Source: Bacteroidota bacterium (GTDB lineage: Bacteria; Bacteroidota; Bacteroidia; Bacteroidales; Prolixibacteraceae). Taken from it: a DNA stretch of 64,000 nucleotides. Shown here piece after piece: positions 28,283 through 36,709 of the stretch (positions within the stretch are counted from its first letter, which is position 1; each line of letters starts with the position of its first letter). Both the position numbers and the translations under genes were made by a program. The stretch covers positions 1 to 64,000 of the forward strand of contig JAHEYU010000009.1 in NCBI GenBank assembly GCA_023251435.1, given 5' to 3'. The notes beneath the pieces were generated by a model, which saw only the letters and a list, made by a program, of their open reading frames with translations, made no database searches and was not told where the DNA came from.

Positions 28283-29404
28283 ATGGAAGATTTTCAGGTA
28301 TTTGTGAAACCGGTTGGGGCCAGTTGTAATTTGGCTTGCAGCTATTGCTATTACCTCGCAAAGAGTGAGTTGCTTGCCGATTCCGGTCTTCACCGGATGC
28401 CCGGTGATTTACTTGAAATGTACATCGTTCAGCACATTGAAGCTTCCACCGAACCTACCGTTTTCTTTTCGTGGCACGGTGGTGAACCCACTTTGGCCGG
28501 GCTGGATTATTTCCGGCAAATTACTGAAATTCAGAAAAAGCACCTTCCGCCCGATCGCTTCGCTTTAAACGGCATTCAAACCAACGGCACTTTGCTAAAC
28601 GACGAGTGGTGCCAATTCCTGAAAAAAGAGAATTTTATCGTCGGAATCAGCCTCGACGGACCGGAACGATTTCATGCTGTCAACCGATTCAGGAAAGATG
28701 GAAAATCAAGCTTTAATGAGGTTTTGCGCGGGTTTCAACTTCTGCAATCGTATCAGATTCCTTGCGAAATACTTTGCGTTGTTCATGCCCAAAATGTTGG
28801 ATTTCCGCTGGAAGTCTATCGCTTTTTCAAAAGCCTGAAAGCCGGATTCATCACATTTTTGCCATTGGTGGAAAAACAAACTTCAGGCGAAAAAATGGTT
28901 TCTGAACGGACAGTTCCAGCAAAAGCTTTTGGAGAATTTTTGTGTGCCATTTTCGACGAATGGAAAACTTCGGATATTGGAACTGTCAAAATACAGATTT
29001 TCGAAGAAGCGCTCCGCACTGCATTTGGGTTAGAACATTCGCTCTGCATCTTTAAACCTGCTTGTGGCCGCGTTCCGGTGATTGAGCGCAATGGCGATTT
29101 TTATTCGTGCGATCATTTTGTTGATCCGGCTCACAGGATTGGAAATATCCGCTATTCAACACTTTCAGAAATGCTGGAAAGCCCGGCACAGAAAGCATTC
29201 GGACTTGCCAAACTCAATACACTTCCGGAGTATTGCATGAAATGCGAAGTCCGGAACTTTTGCAACGGCGCCTGCCCGAAAGACCGCTTCGATGAAAATC
29301 CGGAAGGAGAGCCGGGCCTGAATTATTTGTGCGAAGGGTACAAATTGTTTTTCAACCACTGCAAACCATTTGTGGAGGTAGTTGCGGAAGTTTGGAGAAG
29401 GTAG
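28283..29404 (+). CDS. anaerobic sulfatase-maturating enzyme (radical SAM/SPASM)
   Basis: 373 residues. The radical-SAM cluster motif is Cys15-x3-Cys19-x2-Cys22 (CNLACSYC) followed by YYLAKSEL, typical of anSME. It also has FSWHGGEPTLAG and a C-terminal SPASM region with the cysteines CGRVPVIERNGDFYSCDHFVDP and CMKCEVRNFCNGAC, which hold two auxiliary Fe-S clusters. The Asp in SCDHFV fits the anSME catalytic acid. It converts the active-site Cys or Ser of sulfatases to formylglycine without oxygen. No sulfatase lies in this window, so it probably acts on enzymes encoded elsewhere. It converges on the dienelactone hydrolase gene with a shared terminator. Confidence 0.9.
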   Translation: MEDFQVFVKPVGASCNLACSYCYYLAKSELLADSGLHRMPGDLLEMYIVQHIEASTEPTVFFSWHGGEPTLAGLDYFRQITEIQKKHLPPDRFALNGIQTNGTLLNDEWCQFLKKENFIVGISLDGPERFHAVNRFRKDGKSSFNEVLRGFQLLQSYQIPCEILCVVHAQNVGFPLEVYRFFKSLKAGFITFLPLVEKQTSGEKMVSERTVPAKAFGEFLCAIFDEWKTSDIGTVKIQIFEEALRTAFGLEHSLCIFKPACGRVPVIERNGDFYSCDHFVDPAHRIGNIRYSTLSEMLESPAQKAFGLAKLNTLPEYCMKCEVRNFCNGACPKDRFDENPEGEPGLNYLCEGYKLFFNHCKPFVEVVAEVWRR

Positions 29405-30467: not shown

Positions 30468-31172
30468 ATGAGATCATTATTTGTTATTCTGTCTATTCTG
30501 GTGGTGTTTACAGGTTGTGTGAAAAAGAACAAGGTGCCTACAGTACAAACCCTTGCAAATGCTTCGATGCACGAAGTAAAAGTTGAAGAAGTTATTCAAA
30601 CCTCAGCATACACCTATTTGAAGGTTAGTGAAAACGGTGCTGAAAACTGGATTGCGGTTAACCGTCAGGAAGCGGCGATAGGTGAAACCTATTATTACGA
30701 AGAAGCCCTTGAAATGAATAATTTCCAAAGCAAGGAACTCAACCGGACTTTCGAAACCGTTTTTTTCGTTCAGGGACTTAGTAAAGAGCCCATTGCGGCA
30801 AAAACCGAAACTCCGGAGGAAATTAAACCTGTGCAGCCTACTCTTACCATGAATGAAGCGATATCGGTTGCTCCGGCTGAAAATGGCCTTTCAATTGCCG
30901 TGCTGTATGCAGATCGCGAAAAATATTCGGGCAAAAAAATAAAAATGAAGGGGCAGGTTGTGAAAGTGAACGATGAAGTGATGGGCAAAAACTGGATTCA
31001 TATTCAGGACGGAACCAAAGACGGAGAAAACTTCGACCTGACCATTACCACTCTTGATAAAGCCGCACTCGACGAAGTGGTGACTTTTGAAGGAACCATT
31101 ACCCTGAAAAAGGATTTTGGCTACGGCTATTTTTACGAACTGATTATGGAAGACGCCAAACTGGTGAAATAG
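30468..31172 (+). CDS. lipoprotein with C-terminal OB-fold (nucleic-acid-binding-like) domain
   Basis: 234 residues. Signal II peptide with lipobox ending at Cys17 (VFTGC). A beta-rich middle domain (about 35-110) follows, then an OB-fold-like domain (about 140-234; KYSGKKIKMKGQVVKV, WIHIQDGT, VTFEGTITLKKDFGYG). Such OB domains occur in Bacteroidota periplasmic proteins of unknown function; nucleic acid need not be the ligand. The last 190 bp of this gene are repeated at 36520-36709, on the far side of the secreted-peptide cluster, so the gene marks one border of that region. A strong terminator follows. Confidence 0.75.
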   Translation: MRSLFVILSILVVFTGCVKKNKVPTVQTLANASMHEVKVEEVIQTSAYTYLKVSENGAENWIAVNRQEAAIGETYYYEEALEMNNFQSKELNRTFETVFFVQGLSKEPIAAKTETPEEIKPVQPTLTMNEAISVAPAENGLSIAVLYADREKYSGKKIKMKGQVVKVNDEVMGKNWIHIQDGTKDGENFDLTITTLDKAALDEVVTFEGTITLKKDFGYGYFYELIMEDAKLVK

Positions 31173-31253: not shown

Positions 31254-33455
31254 TCAGGCGCTTACAAGTTGAATTTCCTCAAAAGCGTCCCTGTAAAATT
31301 GGTTGGTTTGCTCCACCTCATCATGAGTTCCTGATGCCGCTATTTGTTTATTTTCAATCACATAAATAAAATCGGTGTGACGTGCCAACTGAACACGGTG
31401 GGTTACAAAAATAATCATCATTTCCTTCTTTTTTTGTTGCAGGAGTTTTAATACAAATTGCTCTGTCCGACGATCCATTGCGGCAGTGGCTTCGTCGAGC
31501 AAAAGCAGTTGTGGTTTTTGGTAAAGTGCACGAGCCAGAGCAATCAACTGCTGTTGCCCTCCCGAGAGGTTGGTACTATTTTCATTTACAATGGTGGCAT
31601 AGCCTTGTTGGAATTCGTTGATAAACATTTCGATACCAGTTTCTTTGCAAAAGGCAATAACTTCCTGAATGTTGGGTTTTTCTTCCAGACAAATATTATC
31701 GAGAATGGTACCGTTAAAAAGCTTCACATGTTGCGAAACAACACCAATTTTGTCGCGCCATTGAGGTATCGAAATTGTTGCCCAGTCTAAGTCATTTACT
31801 ATTATTTGTCCTGATTCGAAAGGATACAAGCGCTGCAGGACTGAAATCAGGGTGCTTTTTCCGCAGCCGATTTCACCAAAAATGGTTGCGATCTTTCCGC
31901 GCTCAAAGTGCATGGTAATATCTTTCAGTAATAAGCTTTTCCCCGGAAACCTGAAATTAAGGTTATTGATTTCAAGAGTCTTGATTTTTGGCTCGGTAGA
32001 ACCTGAAACTTGAAATTTTGAACTTGGAACTTCCATTTCGTATTCCGGTTCGGCGGCAGAAAATTCGTGCATACGTTCGAAAGCGGTTTTGGCCTCCTGA
32101 AACTGGATGTTGGCCATTGCCACGTTAATTACCGAAGTAACCAGAGTGCCTGCAATGGAAACAATGGCCATCATTTCGCCCAACTGAAGTTGTTTGTCGA
32201 TTACCAGAAAAGAAGACCATGCAATTATTGAGGAGATAATCAGGATACTACCTGCCTGTGCCCAAAGGTTGATCGTATTCCCTAAAATTCCCAATTCGAA
32301 AACCTTCTCCTGAAAGAAACTATAAATTGAATGTACAGCTTTTGTGACAAGTGATTCTTTGTTTCCTGTTTTGATCACTTTTATACCTTGAATAGTATCA
32401 ATGTATTTGCTTTGAGAGATAGCATGTGATTGCATAACTTCCCGCTGCTTTTCAATGATTTGTTGGTTGTATTTCCAGGCAAGCAAACCGAAAATTGGCA
32501 GCGACAACAAACCAATTGCCCCGGTTGATGCGGACAATAAAAAAATGTAAATTAATGAGGAAATTACAATCAGCGCATCGATTAGTACACTGCTGCTTAG
32601 GTTGATAACTACACGCTGAATACGTTGCGAGTCGTTCAATCGTCCGGTCATATCGCCGGTTGATGTACTATCGAAAAAATTTTGGGGCAAATACATGAGT
32701 TTCCCAAAAAACGACGACACCACCCTTACGTTCATGTCGCGGCTTTGTCGTATCAACACTATTCCCCTGATGTAGCCAACGAATGCCCTGGCGAATAAAA
32801 CTGCAACGAAAATAGCCAGACTTTTAAACAACAATTCGTAGTTGGCCGATGGTAAAATTTTATCGATCAGCTTTTGGGTATAAATGGCTGTTGCCAAACC
32901 GAGCGCTGCCAGAACAACTCCCATAAAAGCAGCAACGAGCAAAACAGGTACATCGTCTTTAATTAACTCTTTGAACCAAATCAGTTTCGCACTTTTCAGG
33001 TTTTCAACTTTTTTAAAATCGTTGCCGGGTTTCAGCCAAAGCAGAGCTTTCGATTTCCACACCACTTCCAGTTCTTCGTCGCAATATTCAACAATTCCCC
33101 ATGCAGGGTCGCCAATTATAAATTTATTGTTGCTGTACCCGTAACAAACCACAAAATGTTCCAAACTATTTTCGTTAAGAATGTGCAGAATAATCGGATG
33201 GTAAATTGTTTTAAGGTTTTCTAAATCGGCTTCATAGCCCTTCACCTCAAAACCCATTTTTTGAGCCGACTGGTACAATCCCAATAAACTGGTGCCATTT
33301 AAGGTGGTGCCGCTGCTATCGCGTAATTTTTCCTGTAGAGTTTCGCCTCCATAATATTTTACGATGGAAGTAAGGCAAGACAACCCGCAATAAAACTGAC
33401 TATATTGACGGGTGAAGGTTTTGTTTATGTGTTTCGAAGATTTCGACTCTTTCAT
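31254..33455 (-). CDS. C39-peptidase-containing ABC transporter (PCAT) for a double-glycine peptide
   Basis: 733 residues (an alternative ATG at 33500 adds 15). The N-terminal C39 domain (about 15-145) has the catalytic Cys23 in QFYCGLSCL, with the oxyanion Gln six residues before it, the His in LEHFVVCYG and the Asp in IGDPAWG. A six-TM exporter domain (about 165-460) and an ATPase domain follow, with Walker A GEIGCGKST, signature LSGGQQQL, Walker B LLLLDEATAAMD and H-loop VTHR. PCATs cut the leader of a double-glycine peptide and export the core; the only such precursor here is at 35706-35897, upstream in the same unit. No membrane-fusion (HlyD-like) gene is present. The linker before the ATPase domain contains a translated copy of a dispersed DNA repeat (32001-32034). 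Confidence 0.9.
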   Translation of the reverse strand: MKESKSSKHINKTFTRQYSQFYCGLSCLTSIVKYYGGETLQEKLRDSSGTTLNGTSLLGLYQSAQKMGFEVKGYEADLENLKTIYHPIILHILNENSLEHFVVCYGYSNNKFIIGDPAWGIVEYCDEELEVVWKSKALLWLKPGNDFKKVENLKSAKLIWFKELIKDDVPVLLVAAFMGVVLAALGLATAIYTQKLIDKILPSANYELLFKSLAIFVAVLFARAFVGYIRGIVLIRQSRDMNVRVVSSFFGKLMYLPQNFFDSTSTGDMTGRLNDSQRIQRVVINLSSSVLIDALIVISSLIYIFLLSASTGAIGLLSLPIFGLLAWKYNQQIIEKQREVMQSHAISQSKYIDTIQGIKVIKTGNKESLVTKAVHSIYSFFQEKVFELGILGNTINLWAQAGSILIISSIIAWSSFLVIDKQLQLGEMMAIVSIAGTLVTSVINVAMANIQFQEAKTAFERMHEFSAAEPEYEMEVPSSKFQVSGSTEPKIKTLEINNLNFRFPGKSLLLKDITMHFERGKIATIFGEIGCGKSTLISVLQRLYPFESGQIIVNDLDWATISIPQWRDKIGVVSQHVKLFNGTILDNICLEEKPNIQEVIAFCKETGIEMFINEFQQGYATIVNENSTNLSGGQQQLIALARALYQKPQLLLLDEATAAMDRRTEQFVLKLLQQKKKEMMIIFVTHRVQLARHTDFIYVIENKQIAASGTHDEVEQTNQFYRDAFEEIQLVSA
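32001..32034 (-). repeat. dispersed AAGTTTCAGG-type repeat translated in frame
   Basis: On the minus strand the words AAGTTCCAAGTTCAAAATT and TCAAGTTTCAGGTT encode SSKFQVSGS in the linker between the membrane and ATPase domains. Similar strings occur between genes at 23239-23271 and 42436-42468. The reading frame is kept. Confidence 0.6.
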
Positions 33456-33508
33456 AAGTATGTTAAAAAAGCCTGCAAAAGAGTGATCAATCGTAGGCAT
33501 TTTTTATT

Positions 33509-33949
33509 TTACATTCCTTTTTCGGTAAGATATTTATTTAACTTTCCTCCCAGCGATATTCCCCAGGTCTGTGCAATCTGCATCGACTCCTTGCTTACTT
33601 TGGTCGTCCCTTCAGTAAGTTTTTTGCCCAGTGGCGATTGGTAAAAGGCAATCAACTGCTTTATTTCTTCTTGGGTATAACACTTTTGGAAAATAGGGAC
33701 AAGCTTCTTGTTCAATTCAACAATTTCTTTGTCGAAAACATCGCGTTTAGCCGATTCCCAAAATACCTGGGGAACATTGGGTTTCATCATTTTGTACTGG
33801 GCAACTATTTGCTCGAATGCCAAATCGTAGGTAGCCGCGCTACCATTCACTTCTAGTAATTTCATGATGTCTTTTTCTGAATCGGTTTGTTGTGCATTAC
33901 ATACTAAAGCTGCAAGGCATAGACCGATGATAAATAGTATTTTATACAT
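33509..33949 (-). CDS. exported DUF2059 protein
   Basis: 146 residues with a signal peptide (1-19, VCNAQ). The mature part is helical and carries the DUF2059 signature near the C-terminus: YTQEEIKQLIAFYQSPLGKKL. The function of the family is unknown. Its position between the thioredoxin-like and transporter genes (8-53 nt gap to the transporter depending on start, 39 nt from the thioredoxin-like gene) suggests it belongs to the secreted-peptide unit, perhaps as a periplasmic chaperone or immunity factor. That role is inference. Confidence 0.78.
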   Translation of the reverse strand: MYKILFIIGLCLAALVCNAQQTDSEKDIMKLLEVNGSAATYDLAFEQIVAQYKMMKPNVPQVFWESAKRDVFDKEIVELNKKLVPIFQKCYTQEEIKQLIAFYQSPLGKKLTEGTTKVSKESMQIAQTWGISLGGKLNKYLTEKGM

Positions 33950-33988
33950 GTTTTTTAATTGTTAGATTATAAATACTCAAATCGCAAA

Positions 33989-34507
33989 TTATTCAAGGCT
34001 GTTAATTATTGCCTCAATTTTTGTTTCGCCTTTGTAAGTTTTTACCAGTTTCCGGTCGATACCGTAAATAAACACCGCTGGCGAAACGGCTGAACCAAAG
34101 CGCTTTTTAAATTCCCGTTTTCGGTCGATCAAAATAGCCAGATTGTCTACTTCCCAAAGGTGATAATTGGCAGCAAAGTCCTCTAGCCGTTTTATCGAGT
34201 CATCGGGCGTAACCATAATCATATTTACTTCTTCAAATTGTTGGGCATTCTTCCCAATTTCAGAAGCTTCGTATTGACAATGCTCACATTCTGGATGAAA
34301 ATAGATGATTACCGTTGGCTTCCGGTTATCAAACTCGTCGGTACAAATCGGCCTTCCGTTCAGAGATTCGAAACAGGCAGATGGCAGGTTTTGGATACTT
34401 TCTGTAACTTTCTTTTTCAACTGATAAGATTGATACGTGCGTATCAGCAACCAAGCTCCGGCTACCAGCAATAAAGCCAATATTAGATATCGTATGGTTT
34501 TTCTCAT
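33989..34507 (-). CDS. membrane-anchored thioredoxin-like (TlpA/redoxin) protein
   Basis: 172 residues with an N-terminal anchor helix (about 5-23). The thioredoxin fold contains a CEHC active-site motif (FHPECEHCQYEA) and the cis-Pro region GSAVSPAVFIYG. CxxC redoxins of this type in the periplasm form or isomerise disulfides. That fits the precursor peptide, whose core has four cysteines. The ATG at 34507 shares its A with the TGA of the upstream membrane-protein gene (TGATG), so the two are translationally coupled. Confidence 0.85.
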   Translation of the reverse strand: MRKTIRYLILALLLVAGAWLLIRTYQSYQLKKKVTESIQNLPSACFESLNGRPICTDEFDNRKPTVIIYFHPECEHCQYEASEIGKNAQQFEEVNMIMVTPDDSIKRLEDFAANYHLWEVDNLAILIDRKREFKKRFGSAVSPAVFIYGIDRKLVKTYKGETKIEAIINSLE

Positions 34508-35163
34508 CAGCTTAGGTTTACAGTTAAAAACATCACAAACAAAACCCAAAGCAATAAGCCAGTGCCATACGAACTGGCAACCGTTTTGAGGGTACTTCCA
34601 AAAGGTTTTTCAACAACATCCATTAGCAACCATGCCAATACCAGCCAGTATAGAGCTTCGAAAATGCTTATGAGCGACAATGGATAAAAGAACAGTTGAT
34701 CGACCGATTCACGATTGAACAACTCCATCAGGGATAAGGGCTGAAACTGTAAGTCATCCAGTGTATTTACTTCTTTGATGAAGATGAGTATAATCAACTT
34801 AACTACACCTGCCAAAACGAAAACAAAGTCGGCAATTAGTGCAACTTTAAACAGGTCTTGAAATCGTACTTTAATGTTGGCTATAAACATCCCAGTATAA
34901 AGGCAAGTGGACGAGAACCCGACTCGAATTAATATCACAAGTGGGATAAATAGGTAACCCAGCCATTGCCATTTTTTAAGTGATTCGATCATACTGGTAA
35001 TCTGGTCTGTGTTTAACCTCTCTCCAAGCGATTGATAATATATACTTTCAGGTAAAGACGAATAACTGATGCCCATTGATATTAAAAAAGTAAATCCAAC
35101 AAGCAATAAAAAATATTTTATACTTTTCACTTTTAATATGCTATCAATCATTGAGTAAGACAA
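34507..35163 (-). CDS. polytopic membrane protein of the peptide cluster, unknown
   Basis: 218 residues with four to five hydrophobic helices (about 15-33, 68-90, 105-127, 150-178, 190-214) and a polar loop carrying a QPLSLMELFN segment. I do not recognise a family; it resembles uncharacterised multi-pass proteins next to bacteriocin-type transporters in Bacteroidota. It could be an immunity protein or part of the maturation complex with the coupled thioredoxin-like protein. The gene is AT-rich and sits in the middle of the leftward unit, 51 nt after the preceding gene. Confidence 0.6.
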   Translation of the reverse strand: MSYSMIDSILKVKSIKYFLLLVGFTFLISMGISYSSLPESIYYQSLGERLNTDQITSMIESLKKWQWLGYLFIPLVILIRVGFSSTCLYTGMFIANIKVRFQDLFKVALIADFVFVLAGVVKLIILIFIKEVNTLDDLQFQPLSLMELFNRESVDQLFFYPLSLISIFEALYWLVLAWLLMDVVEKPFGSTLKTVASSYGTGLLLWVLFVMFLTVNLS

Positions 35164-35214
35164 TCAATGTTTTTAATATTTTCATATTATTTTGTGTGAT
35201 AAATTTATAGAATA

Positions 35215-35625
35215 TCACATATCACGATTAATCTTAGTCGTCTCAAATGAAAAATATGTATCATACTTAGCAAAGTAATAATAGATTTGAGGTATAATAA
35301 ATAATAAAACCCATGTTGATATATAAATCACTCCTATAAGGGAAAAAAAAGTTAATAAAGCTAAAATAGTTGAACCGGTAACACCTAATATATAGAATAA
35401 GTCAGGCAAATAATGCTTTATGTTAATGTTAATGCTTTCAGAGTTTATTGATATTTGATGTGATGACTGCCACCAATCCATTTTCATAATTAAACTATAA
35501 TTACCTTGAGGCAATTCAATCTCTTTATATTCATATCCTTTTAAGCAAAATGTAACATTATTAATGGTAATTTTCAACTTGCGAAATGGAAGTTTCCCTT
35601 TTCGAATTATCTTAAGTTTTGCCAT
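35215..35625 (-). CDS. small membrane protein of the peptide cluster, candidate immunity protein
   Basis: 136 residues. A basic, beta-rich N-terminal domain (about 1-72; KLKIIRKGKLPFRKLKI, LPQGNYSLIMKMDWWQSS) precedes two transmembrane helices (about 76-97 and 101-121) and a short polar tail. The N-terminal part looks like a small cytosolic beta-sandwich. No family recognised. Its very AT-rich DNA and its place directly after the precursor (80 nt) make it the best immunity-protein candidate. That is inference from gene order only. Confidence 0.55.
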   Translation of the reverse strand: MAKLKIIRKGKLPFRKLKITINNVTFCLKGYEYKEIELPQGNYSLIMKMDWWQSSHQISINSESININIKHYLPDLFYILGVTGSTILALLTFFSLIGVIYISTWVLLFIIPQIYYYFAKYDTYFSFETTKINRDM

Positions 35626-35705
35626 TGAAGTATAGTTTTTAAGTGACCCCGGTTTTGGACAACCGAGGTCTCAATGTAAAAATTCGTTGTATTTGAAAAT
35701 GTTTT

Positions 35706-35897
35706 TTAGTATGCACAATACATAGATAACAATCCCATACCTAATGCTGTAGGCCCACAAATTAACAACCCCACAAGGCCAAAACATGATCCAACCGAAG
35801 CAGCAAATCCAACTGTTGCGATAAATTTCTCAGCAGAATCACTACATTCACCACCACCATTTAGGCTTTCCATTTTTTCAAAACTCAATTCTTTCAT
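35706..35897 (-). CDS. double-glycine-leader peptide precursor (bacteriocin/RiPP-like)
   Basis: 63 residues. Leader of 15 residues, MKELSFEKMESLNGG, with hydrophobic residues at -12, -7 and -4 and GG at -2/-1, the layout recognised by C39 peptidases. The predicted core is 48 residues, starting GECSDSAEKF. It holds four cysteines (core 3, 23, 32, 46) and a Gly-rich hydrophobic stretch with GSCFG and ALGMG segments, ending MYCAY, which could insert into membranes. The ATG at 35897 is chosen because the leader then has the usual length; the frame stays open for 39 codons upstream through the structured element. It is first in a leftward unit that contains a C39 transporter and a CxxC redoxin. 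No modification enzyme (LanM, YcaO, radical SAM) is adjacent, so a disulfide-bonded class II-type peptide is most likely. Confidence 0.78.
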   Translation of the reverse strand: MKELSFEKMESLNGGGECSDSAEKFIATVGFAASVGSCFGLVGLLICGPTALGMGLLSMYCAY

Positions 35898-35982
35898 AAC
35901 GTAAAAATTTAAGATTTTAATTTTACCTTCACGAACCCAATTATACCTACATGTAGTATCGTGCATGTTTACCACATAAGGC

Positions 35983-36087
35983 CGACCCGTTCTTGAAAGA
36001 TGGAAAGGCTCCAACTCTTGGCCGCACCGGCGGGTCGTACCCGGCAGAATTTCGACTCTCGGCAGGGAAATGTAACCCGGTGCGGCC
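35983..36087 (-). other. GC-rich interlocking inverted repeats upstream of the precursor
   Basis: Two perfect stems interlock. CGACCCG (35983-35989) pairs with CGGGTCG (36031-36037), and GGCCGCACCGG (36020-36030) pairs with CCGGTGCGGCC (36077-36087). The left arm of the second stem lies inside the loop of the first, so together they would form a pseudoknot, or alternatively two exclusive folds. The block is far more GC-rich than its surroundings and lies 86-190 nt upstream of the precursor start, in its likely leader transcript. I do not recognise a known riboswitch, tRNA, attC site or intron domain. Confidence 0.55.
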
Positions 36088-36198
36088 TACTCCACGAATT
36101 TGTTAATGCTCATATTTTGGACATAATTTTGGCATGATTGAAAAATGTTGTTGCCGTTCTGATTTATAAATGTAAATGGGTAATCAATTCCGAAAGTT

Positions 36199-36517: not shown

Positions 36518-36709
36518 TTGGGCAAAATCTGGATTCATATTCAGGACGGAACCAAAGATGGCGAAAACTTTGACCTGACCATTACCACTCTTGACAAAGC
36601 TGTTGTTGATGACGTGGTTACTTTTGAAGGAACCATTACCCTGAAAAAGGATTTCGGCTACGGTTATTTTTACGAACTGATTATGGAAGATGCCAAACTG
36701 GTGAAATAA
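36518..36709 (+). pseudogene. truncated 3' copy of the OB-fold lipoprotein gene
   Basis: From 36520 the sequence matches 30983-31172 (the end of the OB-fold lipoprotein gene) over 190 bp without gaps, differing at only about a tenth of positions and ending at the same stop codon position. The encoded 62 residues keep the OB-fold core (WIHIQDGT, VTFEGTITLKKDFGYG). The signal peptide, lipobox and N-terminal domain are missing and no proper start is present. Differences are mostly synonymous, so the copy may have been functional after duplication or been converted. A terminator follows, as for the intact copy. Confidence 0.8.

Follow-up and report, generated by a model that had tools for sequence, protein, structure and literature searches.

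The bacteroidetocin loci described by Coyne et al. (2019, PMC6671954) encode four products: a five-transmembrane (five-TM) protein, a thiol oxidoreductase, a C39-peptidase ATP-binding cassette (C39-ABC) exporter and a double-glycine (GG) peptide, which contains four Cys and whose leader is 15 amino acids (aa) long. Bacteroidetocins A–D are proposed as class IIf, with a core of 42–48 aa that carries four Cys in the best-studied peptides; deletion of the TM or the redox gene attenuated activity and neither was protective, the four genes were sufficient in E. coli, and weakly similar peptides were accepted as relatives given a 15–16-aa leader, at least 2 Cys and the expected neighbours. Bacteroidetocins act on Bacteroidales, with BamA as the target (PMC8546649). 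The present study concerns six leftward genes at positions 31254–35897 of a 64,000-nucleotide (nt) stretch, here called the window, of a Prolixibacteraceae genome (5.73 Mb, 148 contigs). This cluster is likely to be a class II bacteriocin locus that has the production module of bacteroidetocins as its base: its core, being the known module, is ordinary, its cargo, the gene in the slot after the precursor and a DUF2059 gene make it an unusual variant, and its presumed regulatory leader is unmatched in Rfam.

All six open reading frames (ORFs) are uninterrupted and closely spaced on the minus strand, at the coordinates that an earlier note on this DNA had given for the cluster. The order runs from a 63-aa precursor (35706–35897), composed of a 15-aa GG leader (MKELSFEKMESLNGG) and a 48-aa core, through a 136-aa protein with a C-terminal two-TM hairpin (35215–35625), which occupies a variable slot after the precursor, to a multi-TM helper protein, MP218 (34507–35151), a 172-aa TlpA/AhpC-TSA-like thiol oxidoreductase with an N-terminal anchor (33989–34507), a 146-aa DUF2059 protein (33509–33949) and a 748-aa C39 peptidase-ABC exporter (31254–33500). 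MP218 ends at 34507 and would be 218 aa long from a TTG at 35163 or 214 aa from an ATG at 35151, the latter being preferred as the start. Its gene overlaps the redox gene via TGATG, the coupling of a multi-pass and a thioredoxin-like gene that had been reported before, and a one-base overlap of this type is also present in six relatives (L084–L088, L097). The redox protein matches AhpC-TSA (PF00578, 2.2e-10), has a hydrophobic N-terminus and carries a CEHC motif, both Cys of which are invariant in all eight aligned sequences. The exporter matches Peptidase_C39 (4.5e-30), ABC_membrane (1.8e-27) and ABC_tran (1.6e-30), with catalytic Cys/His/Asp regions at CGLSCL (residue 38), EHFVVC (114) and GDPAWG (130), a triad assigned by eye; its best named match, at 92%, is in a Prolixibacteraceae metagenome-assembled genome. 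No Pfam family above cut-off was found for the 136-aa and 218-aa proteins.

This gene content supports the earlier proposal of a cluster for a secreted GG peptide, complete with an exporter and probable machinery for disulfide formation. The accompanying suggestion of a ribosomally synthesized and post-translationally modified peptide is unsupported, as profile scans found no peptide-modifying enzyme among the six genes. A neighbouring radical S-adenosylmethionine gene at 28283–29404 encodes a sulfatase maturase (TIGR03942, 3.3e-130), not a peptide maturase.

The earlier note had also regarded the combination as a system it could not name. That view can be set aside, since the four-part core corresponds to the published bacteroidetocin gene set (PMC6671954): a multi-TM protein, a GG peptide, an oxidoreductase and a C39-ABC exporter. 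The 15-aa leader ending in GG, the 48-aa core and its four Cys are those expected of a bacteroidetocin. The arrangement in bacteroidetocins A and B (gene prefixes EH214 and EH213) is TM protein, peptide, oxidoreductase and exporter, whereas in the window the precursor comes first, the slot gene intervenes, and a candidate immunity gene, a DUF2059 gene and a leader mini-ORF with a hairpin are added. The published gene order is found at L044, a locus of a Bacteroidaceae-like genome with a 15-aa leader, KFWG after the GG and four Cys. MP218 is homologous to its L044 counterpart (E = 4.4e-9); homologues of MP218 occupy the same position, and it is the probable counterpart of the bacteroidetocin five-TM protein. 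Bacteroidetocin cores are somewhat basic, whereas the window core, with its four Cys and eight Gly, is hydrophobic and acidic (mean hydropathy +1.05, net charge −2), a difference measured against the L044 core (−1.21 and +4) and not against A and B themselves. The class II microcins of Enterobacterales (PMC9746304) share with the window a GG leader, a C39 exporter and a nearby small TM protein, but the window cluster is from another phylum, has no membrane fusion protein and carries the redox and multi-TM pair. The same genome holds a second cluster (C106, L030) with a polar GG precursor, a 435-aa CarboxypepD-domain protein, and multi-TM, redox and transporter genes.

The block is more than a chance assembly, because it recurs in many genomes. 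Counting the own genome each time, an MP218 query had a match in 13 of 295 genomes of the class, and an alignment query (A1) in 23 of 100 genomes of the family. Among 14 places retrieved outside the own genome, the block is complete or nearly so in seven (L032, L033, L034, L036, L044, L045 and L037, the last without the redox gene). Co-occurrence of the neighbours with C39 transporters in other genomes, on which the earlier proposal turned, was found with a transporter-only query: after exclusion of two loci at contig edges (L122, L129), 23 of 25 named loci were left, and the multi-TM and redox genes both adjoin the transporter in 20 of these, including L120, where the multi-TM gene is truncated at a contig edge. 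A GG precursor was detected in 19 of the 23 by a simple rule, and DUF2059 in 6. The exceptions are L131, with the redox gene only, and L123 and L125, which encode a precursor, a 368–386-aa protein, a glycosyltransferase-like protein and the transporter. A further table of 26 family loci was chosen to contain the block, so that the multi-TM and redox genes are present by construction (seven of the 26 retrieved family multi-TM loci, L096, L101, L103, L104, L106, L107 and L109, had been dropped as fragments or as having no redox and transporter genes); the transporter is present in 25 of the 26 and DUF2059 in 10.

The family table also shows what follows the precursor. It holds 25 precursors with hydrophobic cores, the window's included and apparently spurious leader-rule matches dropped (L095, L097, L098, L116), and a small TM ORF stands directly after 19 of them, by a hand count without a random-gene control. 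These ORFs encode 51–158 aa, and a few of the shortest are possibly not genes. The other hydrophobic-core precursors are followed by ABC exporter genes (two cases, L084 and L095), a 107-aa non-TM ORF (two) or another precursor (two). Four of the five polar cores (L030, L102, L110, L118) precede a 435–447-aa protein of one family, which contains a CarboxypepD domain as tested in L030, and the remaining one (L085) precedes an ABC gene. Because a small TM ORF so often follows a hydrophobic-core precursor, the 136-aa protein, which has two hydrophobic segments, is by its position a candidate cognate immunity protein; its length falls within the 51–216-aa range given for confirmed class II microcin immunity proteins (PMC9746304). 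Ten slot proteins that were scanned had no Pfam family in common, only that of L084 passing the cut-off (DUF5687). The low GC content of the 136-aa gene (27% versus 41% for the window) and the variability of the slot would fit exchangeable peptide-immunity cassettes.

Immunity had previously been proposed for one or other of the two membrane proteins; the 136-aa protein stands as a candidate, and MP218 was rejected. That MP218 confers immunity, the 136-aa gene being unrelated, is highly improbable. MP218 is indeed a membrane protein encoded near the precursor in these loci, and it has a weak match to the YknW family (E = 0.002, far below the model cut-off), but deletion of its counterpart attenuated the toxin and its expression gave no protection (PMC6671954). 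Loci that encode several different peptides make do with a single copy of the multi-TM gene, which sets it apart from cognate immunity genes.

Peptide pheromones can likewise depend on GG leaders and C39 exporters, and this favours a reading of the peptide as a signalling pheromone or other non-killing export, with the small TM protein as a sensor or partner rather than an immunity protein. Small helix-turn-helix (HTH) genes near related clusters in 10 loci, two of which were tested, point the same way, as does the occurrence of the same leader element before other secreted-protein genes. However, the cores are hydrophobic, Gly-rich and about 45–55 aa long, mostly with 2–4 Cys, and occur several per locus with strong divergence between neighbours, which is a better fit to an arms race, and the module is that of proven killers (PMC6671954); a pheromone is thus unlikely. 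The HTH-like regulators, 68–109 aa and of one family, are located near L037, L047, L086, L091, L109, L130, L133, L139, L141 and L142; that of L091 matches HTH_11 (5.2e-10) and that of L047 matches weakly.

Within the production module, the exporter and the multi-TM/redox pair have different patterns of similarity. The window transporter shares 84–88% identity with its counterparts in L030 and L110, where the multi-TM and redox proteins are only 24–27% identical, whereas in L111 the multi-TM and redox proteins are 68% and 62% identical to those of the window and the transporter 73%. The pair thus tracks the class of cargo and the exporter looks generic, which would leave handling of the core to the pair and recognition of the leader to the exporter. 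An AlphaFold model of MP218 built with 18 sequences (window and named loci) is composed mostly of helices, with a predicted local distance difference test score (pLDDT) of 85.3 and a predicted template modelling score (pTM) of 0.76; a fold search against the PDB found no chain at E ≤ 0.001. Plasmid searches gave one distant match for MP218, to a Flammeovirga plasmid record, and none for the L044 protein, and no named relative turned up when the L044 exporter was used as query. A PHROGs search returned two weak matches, to families of unknown function.

The tie of DUF2059 to the cluster is real in the family and at the same time optional, the gene being present in 10 of 26 cluster loci. The window protein matches PF09832 (1.3e-17) and has a signal-peptide-like N-terminus. 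PF09832 is rare in the family, occurring in 15 of the 100 genomes with 20 matches, yet half of these (10 of 20) lie by their coordinates no more than about 3 kb from a multi-TM match on the same contig. The multi-TM protein is present in 10 of the 15 DUF2059 genomes versus 13 of the 85 others (Fisher p = 9.7e-5, relatedness ignored). Other DUF2059 regions contain a GG peptide (L142), an exporter remnant (L139) or a small two-TM ORF (L135), end nearby (L137, L141) or hold a stand-alone gene (L136, L138, L140). The terms DUF2059 and bacteriocin also appear together in one paper, on Methylobacterium and Xylella.

Upstream of the precursor is a leader ORF and hairpin (36113–36020) that the earlier note did not include. 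With the upstream region of the window as query, nhmmer picked up related sequence of ~230 nt ahead of the precursors of many loci, and some loci have several copies (L083, L086, L110, L111). On the minus strand of the window, the element begins with a mini-ORF at 36113–36087 (ATG AGC ATT AAC AAA TTC GTG GAG TAG, MSINKFVE-stop), the stop of which shares one base with the stem of a hairpin (36020–36087, arms GGCCGCACCGG at 36087–36077 and CCGGTGCGGCC at 36030–36020); a conserved 122-nt segment (35898–36019), delimited by nhmmer and alignments, then extends from the hairpin to the precursor ATG. The core of the element consists of an 11-bp GC stem and a further short helix. A AANAAATT motif was initially taken for a promoter box and rejected when the flanking sequence of the copies showed it to be coding, and the conserved AAYAARTTYRTT before the stem is likewise coding.

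Coding conservation of the mini-ORF was assessed in 53 copies, comprising the family-search matches (one swapped for a named duplicate) and seven more, several of them close relatives. An in-frame ATG and a near stop are present in 49 of the 53, the exceptions being L116, L118 and L201, with no in-frame ATG, and L192, with no near stop. Forty-seven of the 49 mini-ORFs are 7–8 or 12–15 codons long, one has 10 codons and one 27, and 45 end in N-K/R-F-V/I with at most one further residue (L186, L193, L200 and L204 differ). Codon variation is mainly at third positions (AAC 27/AAT 25; AAA 37/AAG 11/CGT 3; TTC 34/TTT 19): departures from the majority N-K-F codons number 60 at third and 7 at first or second positions, by a hand count over partly related copies. 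The Val/Ile codon varies between GTN and ATT, and K becomes R via CGT in three copies.

The hairpin shows covariation, with double changes in 7 of 15 pairs (22 cells) and none of 500 shuffles scoring as high, in an alignment fitted to the RNA model, a procedure that leans towards the structure. On the free alignment A6 the stem escaped RNAalifold, because MAFFT had misplaced the 3' arm; model-guided alignment recovered it, and on alignment A11 the stem was found with two double-change pairs. The window leader alone folds only moderately better than shuffled sequences (z −1.85). Two Rfam scans gave chance-level matches only (E of 0.08 or more), none of them at the window element.

The palindromic GC arms, the presence of the element before unrelated genes and the close relationship of many copies, which makes their conservation partly non-independent, would be consistent with an element acting at the DNA level, such as an operator, an alternative-sigma promoter or a small mobile repeat, and not as a translated leader. 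This is doubtful, however, given the third-position codon variation with its K-to-R change by CGT, the fact that 49 of 53 copies have both an in-frame ATG and a near stop, a start codon 105–123 nt downstream in 30 of 40, and the finding of just two copies in the own 5.7-Mb genome. The mini-ORF and hairpin are instead probably a leader-peptide attenuator, which is the natural reading because a ribosome halted at the end of the mini-ORF would occlude the 5' arm. Known attenuators and arrest peptides of the leader type, among them TnaC (PMC8429421) and the ErmCL- and CatA86-type leaders, likewise combine a short ORF, a conserved C-terminal motif and a stop at a hairpin, ahead of a gene that is presumably regulated; the window leader differs in having no Rfam match and 46 copies, spread over 27 of the 100 family genomes. 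No NKF[VI]-stop leader was described in the result listings of literature searches made with general terms.

These 46 copies precede, by a simple rule, 20 GG precursors, 20 signal-peptide-like ORFs, 4 other ORFs and in 2 cases none, with the start codon 105–123 nt past the stem in 30 of 40 classified copies. The two copies in the own genome stand one before each GG precursor. Locus-only scans had at first suggested a peptide-specific upstream element, a reading dropped when the family-wide search showed secreted-protein genes as well. For A10, 21 sources were chosen, with a cut-off set to exclude chance hits and those on the reverse strand (L049, reverse matches); the true copy in L089 was lost by this choice as well, and L092 and L117 were not caught. 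Under stricter filters, by which weak matches were lost, three of 295 class genomes matched, the own genome strongly and two marginally, and two of 295 order genomes, both of the own family. In L188, L189 and L202 the element stands before 67–77-aa secreted-looking proteins followed by a ~276-aa protein, which may form another conserved pair behind this leader. The element may tentatively be regarded as a new family of leader-peptide switches, with a mostly 7–15-codon ORF ending in N-K/R-F-V/I-stop and a hairpin, in which ribosome behaviour at the stop (e.g., slowed termination during starvation or exposure to ribosome-targeting antibiotics) would control a Prolixibacteraceae regulon of exported products, with bacteriocins as its main known member; this is a real possibility, and one held with less than even confidence.

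Several observations weigh against a bacteroidetocin-type bacteriocin locus. The case rests on sequence, with transcription, peptide and killing all predicted. Coyne et al. found no immunity gene and self-inhibited producers (PMC6671954), so that an immunity gene here has no precedent in that family, and the slot pattern is less regular outside the family (L034, L046). L044, the locus used for comparison, could not be matched by name to a published one, although it may be such a locus. No membrane fusion protein was found among the six genes and four scanned neighbours, and the leader element, as it precedes other secreted-protein genes, is not bacteriocin-specific. The multi-TM gene occurs with neither redox nor transporter gene in seven of the 14 retrieved places (L035, L038–L043) and, within the own family, in L096, L101, L103 and L107. 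The exporter gene is interrupted in 8 of 43 loci (L030, L034, L045, L048, L102, L116, L130, L134; 48 loci were checked, five of them with no usable exporter match), including a single internal stop in the own genome's second cluster, L030. In six of the eight the interruptions are in-frame stops with no frameshift, and in some assemblies sequencing errors are possible; the interruptions in L030 and L045, which belong to different families, are near the peptidase/TM junction.

These interrupted transporters in relatives (8 of 43) also bear on whether the cluster is a decaying remnant with no product. Two direct repeats of 190 nt, 92% identical and likewise absent from the earlier note, bracket the cluster on the plus strand: the left copy (30982–31171) is the 3' end of a lipoprotein-like gene (30468–31172), and the right copy (36519–36708) is a gene fragment that duplicates this end. 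Such a repeat with a gene fragment could mark a remnant, as could a relative (L083/L145) with neither DUF2059 nor transporter. The six window genes are nevertheless all open and the leader element is complete, so that decay is a very unlikely account of the window, and a bacteriocin locus on the bacteroidetocin module is still the favoured one. In sister genomes other versions lie beside the same lipoprotein-like gene, a cluster in L102 and a CarboxypepD-family gene with a multi-TM gene only in L101 and L103.

Related loci exhibit further variation. L083/L145 (G712) holds precursors, multi-TM and redox genes with no DUF2059 or exporter gene before the next gene, unlike L111. An EryCIII-like glycosyltransferase of 430–456 aa and one family, its Pfam match tested in L088, is found in L088, L123, L125, L130 and L133, a possible glycosylated-peptide variant; L123 and L125 are the glycosyltransferase loci with no multi-TM and redox genes. 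In a Bacteroidaceae-like genome, L108 (6112–8018) encodes four similar GG peptides sharing DVCLNCYRAL, with a diverged multi-TM protein, a redox protein and an exporter.

The proposed mechanism is as follows. The precursor would be transcribed behind the leader of mini-ORF and hairpin, where the way in which the ribosome behaves on the mini-ORF with its NKF[VI]-stop end would decide whether the adjoining hairpin forms and thereby set precursor output. The C39-ABC exporter would cleave the 15-aa GG leader and export the 48-aa core, and the anchored thiol oxidoreductase, paired with the multi-TM protein, would oxidise and fold the four-Cys core. The released hydrophobic peptide is predicted to hit membranes or envelope targets of related Bacteroidota, with the putative immunity protein of 136 aa protecting the producer and the DUF2059 protein serving as an optional accessory of the envelope, which might act as a chaperone in the periplasm or as a further immunity factor.

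With this locus the range of the bacteroidetocin module would come to include environmental Bacteroidota, in which the cargo is different and resembles microcins. The locus also points to immunity genes, which are apparently lacking in gut bacteroidetocins. It also suggests a division of the module into a cargo-reading pair (multi-TM and redox proteins) and a generic part (the exporter). The mini-ORF and hairpin make regulation of the toxin directly testable in cultured strains, e.g., Draconibacterium orientale FH5T, where the cluster and both leader elements are present in L117. If the leader switch is real, it would amount to competition sensing at the mRNA level, placed ahead of a bacteroidetocin-type module whose peptide-immunity cassettes can be interchanged.

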